Of a stretch of 64,000 nt of DNA, positions 40,622 through 43,268 are shown piece after piece. The notes under the pieces were generated by a model that saw nothing but the letters and a program-made list of their open reading frames with translations, was not told where the DNA came from and made no database searches. Origin of the DNA: Paramacrobiotus metropolitanus (Eukaryota > Tardigrada > Eutardigrada > Parachela > Macrobiotidae); the NCBI RefSeq assembly GCF_019649055.1, contig NW_026570374.1, forward strand, positions 1 through 64,000, written 5' to 3'. The number at the start of each line of letters is the position of its first letter. The first letter of the stretch is position 1. The position numbers and the translations under genes were made by a program.

Positions 40622-43268
40622 ATGAACGTCGTGATGTTATCCGTTACAATCCTGTTGTGCGGCGTCGCGGGGCTCCTGGACGCCGCCGTCCTCGGCGGGA
40701 GGGCGACGAATCTGCGGGAAGTCTTCCGGGACGACTTCGACGGGCCGACGCTCAACGCCAGTCGGTGGAACGTGGCCGACGTCAAGTCGCAGGTCAACGC
40801 GGAGCTGCAGTACTACCGCCCGGACAACGTCCGCGTCTCCAACGGGACTCTCCGCCTGATCAGCCGGATGGAGGAGTTCGGAGGGTGCCAGTACACTTCG
40901 GGGCGGGTAGACACCGCCGGGAAGTACAGCTTCCTCTACGGCGAGATTGAGTGGCGGGCGCGGATCCCCGCCGGGAAGGGCATCTGGCCGGCGCTGTGGA
41001 TGGAGCACCCCCTGTGCCCGGCGGCCCTCCCGTGTCCCAACCACTGGCCCCCCGCCGTCAGCGTCATCGACATCAAGGGCGACGCAACCGACACCGTCTA
41101 CACCACCGTCTTCTACGTGTCCAACGGCGGTCCGGTGTTGAACGCCGCCACCTCGACGAATCTGTCCCAGGACCTCTCCCGGGACTTTCATATATATAAG
41201 TTGATCTGGACGGCCGAGGCGTTGCTGTGGTTCGTCGACGGGAAGTTGATCTTCTCGGTGGTGGGCGCCGAGAAGGTCCCCACGGTGGCGCTGCAGGTGG
41301 TGATGAACGTGGCCGTCGGCGGGAACTTCCCGGGGAGTCCCGACAACACCACGCGCTTCCCGACGGAGTTCCTCATCGACTACGTGGTGGTGCGGGAGGG
41401 TGAGATTGATGTGTCGCGGTGGGTCAACATCACTTCCGGTATGCGGGAGGTGCTTCCGGGGCCGCCGGTGGTGGCCATCGTCCTCGGGAGCCTCGCGGGA
41501 GTGCTGGTTGTTAGCGTCGCCGGGGTCCTAGTCGGCCTGGTGGTGCACCGGAAGCGGCGCCGACGACTGCGGCATGGGGATATGCGCAAAGGCTCGGCCG
41601 CCAGCACCGACTCCACGATGTTGACCACTCGGTCGCCGTATTTGGCGTATCTCATTAATTCCGGATACGAGCACGTCGACTCGGCAATTCAGCATTATGT
41701 TAACCTGCTGGAGATCCCCATGGCTAACGTCGAGATCGGTGGGTGGGCGCTTTAATTTAATTTAATTTAATTTAATTTAATTCATTTAATTTAATTTAAT
41801 TTAATTTAGGCGCTGTACTGGGAAAAGGCGAGTACGGCATCGTCCGCAAGGGCGTGGCCACCGGGCTGCGCGGTCAGCCGCTGCCCACCCAGGTGGCGGT
41901 CAAGATGGTGCGCGACCGCACCGACCCGGAGCAGAACCGGCAGATCATCCAGGAAATGAAAATCATGACGCAGGCCGGTCGTCACCTCAACATAATCAAC
42001 CTCCTCGGGGCGGTCTTTAAAGGTACAGTAATAAAATTACTGCCAACCGGAAGTGTCACGCGGACGCGTCACGCACGTGTGCCAAGTGTTGATTTATGGC
42101 GCCGAATAAAATCATATATGCACATATGTTTATTTCACCGGCAGGCGAGACGTTTCTGCTGCTGGAATACTCGGAACACGGATCTCTATTGAAGTATCTC
42201 CGCTGTCACCGCGAGCCGCTGTTTTACAACCACACGGACGCCGCCGGCCAGGTGCTGGTCTACGACGAGGCGGAGGTCGGCCGCCTGCAGCGGGCGGTGG
42301 ACAAGGATCCCCCGGCGACCGCCCAGGACGACGACTTCGACGGGAAGGTGCTGGCGACGCGGGATCTGATCAGCTTCGCCTTCCAGGTCAGCCGCGGCAT
42401 GGCCTACCTCAACAGCCGCTCCATCATCCACCGCGACCTGGCCGCCCGCAACGTCCTCGTCTGCCAGGGGGGCGTGGTCAAGATCGCCGACTTCGGGATG
42501 GCGCGCCAGTTGTCCGAGTACGTCCTGCTCAATGAACAGGTAAGGGACTTCCGGTCGACGAGAAGAGACGGGAGAGTAACGGAAAGGTCATCGTAGGTGG
42601 CGCTGCCGGTGCGCTGGATGGCGCCCGAGTCCATCCGGCAGCGGACCTTCTCGCAGAAGTCGGACGTGTGGTCCTTCGGGATACTGATGTGGGAGCTGTT
42701 CAGTCTGGGGGAGACGCCGTATGCCAGCTCCGCCCTGGACGTTGGATACGTCACCGAGTTCCTGGCCGAGCTGCTGAAAGGCGTTCATATGGAGCGGCCG
42801 CCGGCTTGTCCGTCAATTATGTAAGTGACCTTTACTAATATGCACAAACTGACCGGAAGTGGAGCCTTGTAGTTATTAAATTCAATCAAAATTGAATTTC
42901 ATTTACATAAGTGACCTTTAAAGCTTAACCAGGATGACCGGAAGTTGTCACATAATGAAATTAAATTAAATAATTAAATTAAATTATTTTAAACTAAATT
43001 AAATTAAATTAAATTACTATTTTATAGATATGACATCATGGTGCAGTGTTGGCGCCTCCGGCCGGAGGAGCGGCCGGTGTTCAGCCAGCTGGAGCAGGAG
43101 CTGACCGGGCTGGTGGGGCGCGACTCGGCGCAGAACTACCTCGTCCTGGACGAACCGTATCAGCAGTTCAACGTCGCGCACCAGAATCTCCTCGACGAGA
43201 TCGTCGACGAGTCGCGCTACGTGCCCACGACGACGGACACCGCCGACTCCGACAGCACGTCCATTTAG
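40622..43268 (+). CDS. Receptor tyrosine kinase with an inactive GH16/beta-glucan-recognition-like ectodomain
   Basis: Five exons: 40622-41738, 41810-42022, 42145-42539, 42597-42820 and 43028-43268; all phases agree, 729 residues. Residues 1 to about 22: signal peptide. About 25-275: GH16 jelly-roll homologous to genes A and B ([49 protein letters not shown]), with A-V-S-V-I-D in place of the catalytic E-I-D-I-x-E. About 282-308: one transmembrane helix, then [10 protein letters not shown]. About 372-690: tyrosine kinase with GKGEYGIV (P-loop), VAVK near 404, alpha-C Glu near 421, a Tyr-containing insert (about 465-515), HRDLAARN near 539, DFG near 559, an activation-loop Tyr and MAPES. A Tyr-rich tail ([11 protein letters not shown]) follows. 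No key kinase residue is missing. It reads as a sensor coupling glucan recognition to tyrosine phosphorylation; the ligand is inferred. Confidence 0.9.
41753..41809. repeat. (TTTAA)n microsatellite forming most of intron 1 of the receptor kinase
   Basis: The TTTAA pentamer, with one interruption, fills most of the 71-bp intron. Related TTAAA tracts fill the last intron (about 42957-43015). Confidence 0.85.

Follow-up and report, generated by a model that had tools for sequence, protein, structure and literature searches.

The window analysed is a stretch of 64,000 nucleotides and forms part of contig C154 of the Paramacrobiotus metropolitanus genome assembly (169.8 Mb). Its central feature is a gene of five exons (Table 1), which yields a coding sequence of 2190 nucleotides for 729 amino acids plus stop, with no internal stop; all exon borders are GT-AG and the phases match. 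The first-pass annotation had read this region as one continuous gene in a consistent phase, with junctions 41738/41810 and 42022/42145. Both junctions are right in the gene model, two more introns exist beyond them, and the product of the in-phase exons matches NCBI protein P0001 at every residue. The internal exon borders were reproduced by a spliced alignment that used the paralogue P0002 as query. The window also contains two tandem GH16-only genes upstream of the receptor gene, a small multi-exon gene just past it, and exon matches to three other protein families. An Rfam scan of the window gave no match.

Table 1. Features of the window (position 1 is its first nucleotide)
Feature	Position	Strand	Content or basis
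Exon match to rhodopsin-type GPCR	210-965	+	
Exon match to NAD-binding domain	10005-11369	+	
Exon match to YhhN	12100-13017	-	
Tandem GH16-only paralogue 1	34915-36552 (exons 34915-35245, 36041-36552)	+	Dead site A-S-D; alignment
Tandem GH16-only paralogue 2	37026-38143 (homologous parts 37026-37356, 37740-38143)	+	Dead site A-T-N; alignment
Receptor gene	40622-43268	+	Five exons
Exon 1	40622-41738	+	Signal peptide, GH16-like ectodomain, TM helix, juxtamembrane up to kinase start; Pfam, hydropathy, P0001 identity
GH16-like domain, about aa 33-258	40718-41395	+	PDB alignments to GH16 laminarinases (about aa 33-259), Pfam match
Former catalytic motif, now AVSVID (A145, S147, D150) for E-x-D-x-x-E	41054-41071	+	PDB and ectodomain alignments
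Hydrophobic stretch with single TM helix, aa 277-311	41450-41554	+	Hydropathy
Exon 2	41810-42022	+	Kinase N-lobe including P-loop; gene model, Pfam
Exon 3	42145-42539	+	Kinase insert; gene model, Pfam
Exon 4	42597-42820	+	Activation segment end (MAPES), C-lobe; gene model, Pfam
Exon 5	43028-43268	+	C-lobe end, cytoplasmic tail; gene model, Pfam
Tail motif common to the family	43137-43172	+	Motif pattern in 19 of 20 other models; window letters checked
Small multi-exon gene, apparently secreted protein	about 43775-44480	-	By eye

The order of parts in the protein is signal peptide, GH16 domain, one TM helix and split-type tyrosine kinase. Hydropathy alone places hydrophobic segments at aa 1-28 and aa 277-311, in keeping with a signal peptide and one TM helix; the second is followed by HRKRRRR. 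Both Pfam families named as a check in the first-pass annotation match the protein: Glyco_hydro_16 at aa 65-243 (3.5e-16; 59.6 bits against a cut-off of 22), overlapped by the GH16-related family SKN1_KRE6_Sbg1 (7e-11), and PK_Tyr_Ser-Thr at aa 371-675 (2.1e-81), where Pkinase matches too. The closest solved relatives of the ectodomain are laminarinases (PDB 4dfs, 1e-36; 3azx, 2e-36).

The best PDB matches of the kinase are receptor tyrosine kinases. The top row, a tandem EGFR construct, owes its score to four stretches added together; it is followed by PDGFRA, VEGFR1 and FLT3, with FGFR1 further down. The catalytic motifs can be read in the sequence, including the P-loop and MAPES among the key residues claimed earlier, and the kinase looks competent. 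All 20 other family models described below have DFG; 19 of them have HRD, with HCD in its place in L042. The tail motif YLxLDxPYxxFN is present in the window protein and fits 19 of the 20. In L042 (G000 C136:165774-168853, -) the catalytic-loop exon that reads HCD occurs three times in tandem, and the NCBI model for this locus, P0003, joins all three copies. Another locus, L061 (G000 C98:217238-220148, +), has a GH16-like ectodomain on a pseudokinase-like domain: the P-loop is degraded, and HFG stands where DFG is expected.

At the position of the GH16 enzyme motif E-x-D-x-x-E the window protein reads A-x-S-x-x-D (A-V-S-V-I-D against E-I-D-I-M-E in 4dfs, the laminarinase of T. maritima). Both catalytic glutamates are replaced, and the earlier description stands: a receptor tyrosine kinase whose GH16 ectodomain is devoid of them. 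The domain is predicted from these substitutions (E to A, D to S, E to D) to have lost hydrolysis. The ectodomains of 21 receptors (the window gene and 20 loci; L050, L051 and L054 represented by their second GH16 domain) were aligned with 20 controls, namely 18 bacterial or environmental proteins, Hypsibius P0132 and L059 from the own genome. The nucleophile Glu occurs in 0/21 receptors versus 20/20 controls, the acid/base Glu in 1/21 (L044) versus 20/20, the helper Asp in 1/21 (L053, where the alignment is uncertain) versus 20/20, and the His beside the catalytic strand in 0/21 versus 19/20. An ectodomain that still works as an enzyme with substituted catalytic residues is highly improbable: D150 could serve as a weak acid/base, the position at which L044 keeps its Glu, but the nucleophile and the His are both missing in all 21 receptors, and Ala also occupies the nucleophile position, as read by eye, in the first of the two GH16 domains of L050, L051 and L054. 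The environmental protein P0131 reads A-x-S-x-x-E at the catalytic motif, possibly an in-between state of catalytic loss.

Five of the 21 receptors, including the window gene, keep both the WPA and the WPP motif in the ectodomain. The WPP motif is said, in a passage on GH16_3, to border the negative subsites (PMC6827312). Since one or both of these motifs are gone in the other 16 ectodomains, many family members may bind something else.

GH16-only genes accompany the receptors. The product of paralogue 1 in the window has 280 aa and a hydrophobic C-terminal tail that by eye resembles a GPI signal; it is possibly a decoy or co-receptor. The reading frame of paralogue 2 (37026-38220, +) appears by eye to break near 38140, and this copy is perhaps a pseudogene or an assembly error. 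Elsewhere in the genome, L059 is GH16-only with E-x-D-x-x-E intact, and no kinase was seen within the surrounding 8 kb.

The genome contains 40 GH16 exon matches and at least 172 kinase matches (120 scored among 1557 candidates). From these, 20 loci on 16 contigs were chosen because GH16 and kinase exons lie close together on one strand; they are not a random sample. The order GH16, TM, kinase is found in all 20, and 17 of the models are free of stops (one stop each in L050, L051 and L058). Two tandem GH16 domains are present in L050, L051 and L054 (G000 C25 and C144). The models of L043, L049 and L054 agree with NCBI proteins, an agreement that is not independent, since the same proteins served as queries.

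Four members were added to the window gene and these loci, for a total of 25: L061, L062, L064 and the NCBI protein P0124, which fits none of the 20 models and has a kinase cut short. In L062 and L064 the kinase was read as N-lobe, with further kinase exons in the genome match list; the L062 locus contains stops. A profile of the 21 ectodomains matched P0124, L061, L062 and L064 at 1.1e-90, 7.8e-32, 1.1e-54 and 4.4e-32, respectively, and gave no match to 20 shuffled proteins, bird TIE2 or the astacin protein P0122. The total of 25 receptor loci is a lower bound, as is the tally of GH16-only genes: of the 40 GH16 exon matches it leaves out those at C9 (two), C84, C7:2097502, C8, C25:218189 and 211130, C96 (three) and C35. 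Also not counted are L008 (partial GH16 match, E 3e-5), P0123 (marginal, 0.034) and P0122 (none). The kinase loci L060 and L063 gave no match to GH16, and not every kinase cluster of the genome therefore belongs to GH16 receptors. When the N-lobe signature RHLNIxNL was turned into a DNA pattern, it fitted at 37 places, against 3 for a backward control, which could put the kinase clade at around 35 genes; the pattern is neither complete nor proof for each place, as L040, L008 and other known members do not fit it.

The link between GH16 domain and kinase could, in principle, be a chimera of two adjacent genes created by assembly or annotation, given that the raw sequence is unannotated and that dead GH16-only genes lie just upstream. 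However, the GH16 domain, TM helix and juxtamembrane segment of the window protein are encoded by one exon, so that the connection of ectodomain to membrane requires no splice guess; the NCBI model is identical; and the order of domains recurs across the chosen loci, with shared intron positions. As the same arrangement is found at 24 other loci, a chimera is, on the genomic evidence, very unlikely, the least probable of the explanations considered.

The intron at window codon 373 (phase 1) is common to 18 of the 21 models, and those at 444 (phase 1) and 650 (phase 2) to 19 each. Four clades recur in both the GH16 and the kinase trees: the window gene with L039-L044; L050, L051 and L054; L056 and L057; and L045, L047, L048, L052, L053, L055 and L058. 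This correspondence indicates that the genes were mostly duplicated whole. The rows of the GH16 tree are tardigrade and bacterial or environmental only, the latter forming the outgroup, and the root is drawn at the midpoint. The two tardigrade enzymes pair in it (100/98), outside the receptors and the dead secreted proteins; a single clade of receptor ectodomains is neither rejected nor shown by this tree (p-AU 0.319). An exclusive clade for the kinases of the GH16 receptors was rejected (p-AU 0.014), with P0122, P0123 and L008 placed inside.

Pairwise dN/dS, computed for 8 of 9 pairs in each domain (L056/L057 left out), ranges over 0.03-0.29 in ectodomains and 0.12-0.49 in kinases. The values are rough, since dS in many pairs lies close to 1 or exceeds it, and those of L040 may be inflated by a P-loop segment that looks wrong in its model. 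Shared introns, matching clades and low dN/dS fit one fusion that would have been duplicated as a unit and kept by selection. The expanded family could instead consist mostly of decaying copies without function, as suggested by the stops in L050, L051, L058 and L062, some of which may be modelling errors, and by the pseudokinase-like L061. This is very improbable: 17 of the 20 models have open reading frames, 19 of 20 keep the tail motif, and dN/dS in the computed pairs stays well under 1 for ectodomain and kinase alike.

In the protein P0122, a kinase of the same clade has as its ectodomain not GH16 but an astacin metalloprotease domain (7.3e-41), whose zinc motif HELMHTLGFYHEHQRPDRD was read by eye. 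Its gene lies probably at G000 C139:293204-299434 (-), as judged from genome matches, and it represents an apparent ectodomain swap. Such a case means that the heads of these kinases are exchangeable. In G000 the astacin exon matches number at least 164 (150 scored among 445 candidates), a large protease set.

Eight proteins with both GH16 and kinase were found among the matches listed (P0001, P0002, P0003, P0005, P0121, P0124, P0125 and P0130), all from P. metropolitanus. By protein listing, both domains occurred together in 4 of the best 120 of 589 matches, in 6 of 12 listed and in 5 of the best 120 of 864; these searches are based on shared words, and the listing of 12 caught 6 of the at least 25 family members. 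The nearest named animal relative of the ectodomain among the best 120 of 864 matches listed is the GH16-only protein P0132 of H. exemplaris, with 42% identity to the window protein. The public names of family proteins, such as FGFR4-like, VEGFR3-like and Kit-like, conceal a receptor class with a GH16 head. The first-pass annotation knew of no described receptor tyrosine kinase class with a GH16 ectodomain, and none was found in the titles and abstracts listed by searches of the open-licence literature. A term search of the main text of the P. metropolitanus transcriptome paper (PMC11191345) returned neither kinase nor receptor.

Among known systems, the kinase resembles those of PDGFR, VEGFR, FLT3 and FGFR in sequence, in the kinase insert and in the single-pass type I layout. 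The ectodomains of these receptors are immunoglobulin-like, whereas the Pfam scan of the window protein found GH16 and no immunoglobulin domain. Plant receptor-like kinases with glycoside-hydrolase-like ectodomains exist, e.g. the chitinase-like CHRK1, which likewise bears an enzyme fold on a membrane kinase; CHRK1, however, combines a GH18 fold with a Ser/Thr kinase, in contrast to GH16 and a tyrosine kinase here. The tardigrade GH16-only enzymes P0132 and L059 differ in their intact catalytic motif and in having no kinase, in the case of L059 within the 8 kb around it. Insect GNBP/betaGRP proteins are soluble or lipid-anchored. They are similar to the window receptor in being animal GH16-type domains without catalytic glutamates and, as described for them, bind beta-1,3-glucan; they offer a precedent for glucan binding that outlasts catalysis (PMC6403176). 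The insect proteins are described with an extra N-terminal region or carbohydrate domain (PMC6403176), and the window protein instead has TM and kinase after GH16. No additional glucan-binding domain was found at its N-terminus: GH16 starts about 10 residues past the signal peptide, and no other Pfam domain precedes it. The comparison with insect GNBP/betaGRP is thus one of described features. Mammalian EphA2 is an Eph receptor with its own ectodomain and, unlike the window receptor, has no GH16 domain. Detection of beta-glucan has been reported for it (PMC7850503), a precedent for such sensing by a receptor tyrosine kinase.

The GH16 receptors are a real class of receptor tyrosine kinases; their GH16 ectodomain is dead, and the class has expanded in one tardigrade. 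Architecture, catalytic loss, kinase residues, gene family and low dN/dS are results of computation. On the sequence evidence, the preferred reading, with a probability of about one half, is a tardigrade receptor class sensing polysaccharide via a dead laminarinase fold, of which the window gene would be one of at least 25 loci. It is quite possible, although less probable, that the fold is only a scaffold, with a protein or peptide as its ligand or another receptor as its partner, and that a real receptor tyrosine kinase here performs ordinary growth or tissue signalling. The nucleophile, helper Asp, acid/base and His are mostly or all changed throughout the ectodomains, the WP motifs are also gone in the diverged sub-family of seven loci headed by L045, and P0122 has its astacin domain; against this, the WP motifs are kept in the window gene and its close paralogues, and ectodomain dN/dS is low.

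For polysaccharide sensing the following sequence of events could be proposed. A GH16 laminarinase-type domain would have been joined to a split-type kinase of the PDGFR/VEGFR/FGFR kind, giving a type I receptor, and the dead domain would most likely act as a polysaccharide-binding head. The candidate ligand is an extended polymer of repeated units, either beta-1,3-glucan or some glycan related to it, which could come from microbes, from food or from the animal itself. A polysaccharide-binding fold that is dead yet conserved, placed on a kinase with one membrane pass, suggests that such a polymer would cluster the receptors and so cause their trans-autophosphorylation. Partners could then dock at juxtamembrane tyrosines and at the tyrosines of the tail motif. 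For the window receptor we infer glycan binding, clustering, signalling and biological role in this way.

In an eight-tardigrade survey, which covered P. richtersi and not P. metropolitanus, PGRP-SA/SD or GNBP1/3 homologues are reported from no sample, and a heading states that tardigrades lack canonical antimicrobial NF-kB pathways (PMC7056985). A direct route from glycan to kinase would suit an animal of this sort, but a role in detecting food or self glycans is equally compatible. A broader interpretation, which is doubtful as a whole, is that this tardigrade lineage turned a glucanase into a diversifying, multigene family of pattern-recognition receptors with tyrosine kinases, in which dead paralogues, secreted or anchored, act as decoys or co-receptors. 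Such a family would constitute innate polysaccharide-to-phosphotyrosine sensing.

That a class of receptor tyrosine kinases with a head derived from an enzyme should have expanded is surprising in itself. The change from enzyme to receptor is visible in one genome, as an intact GH16-only gene, dead GH16-only copies and dead-headed receptors. The finding also makes testable how animals reported to be without GNBP1/3, PGRP-SA/SD and canonical NF-kB pathways in the survey cited above (PMC7056985) sense microbes or glycans.
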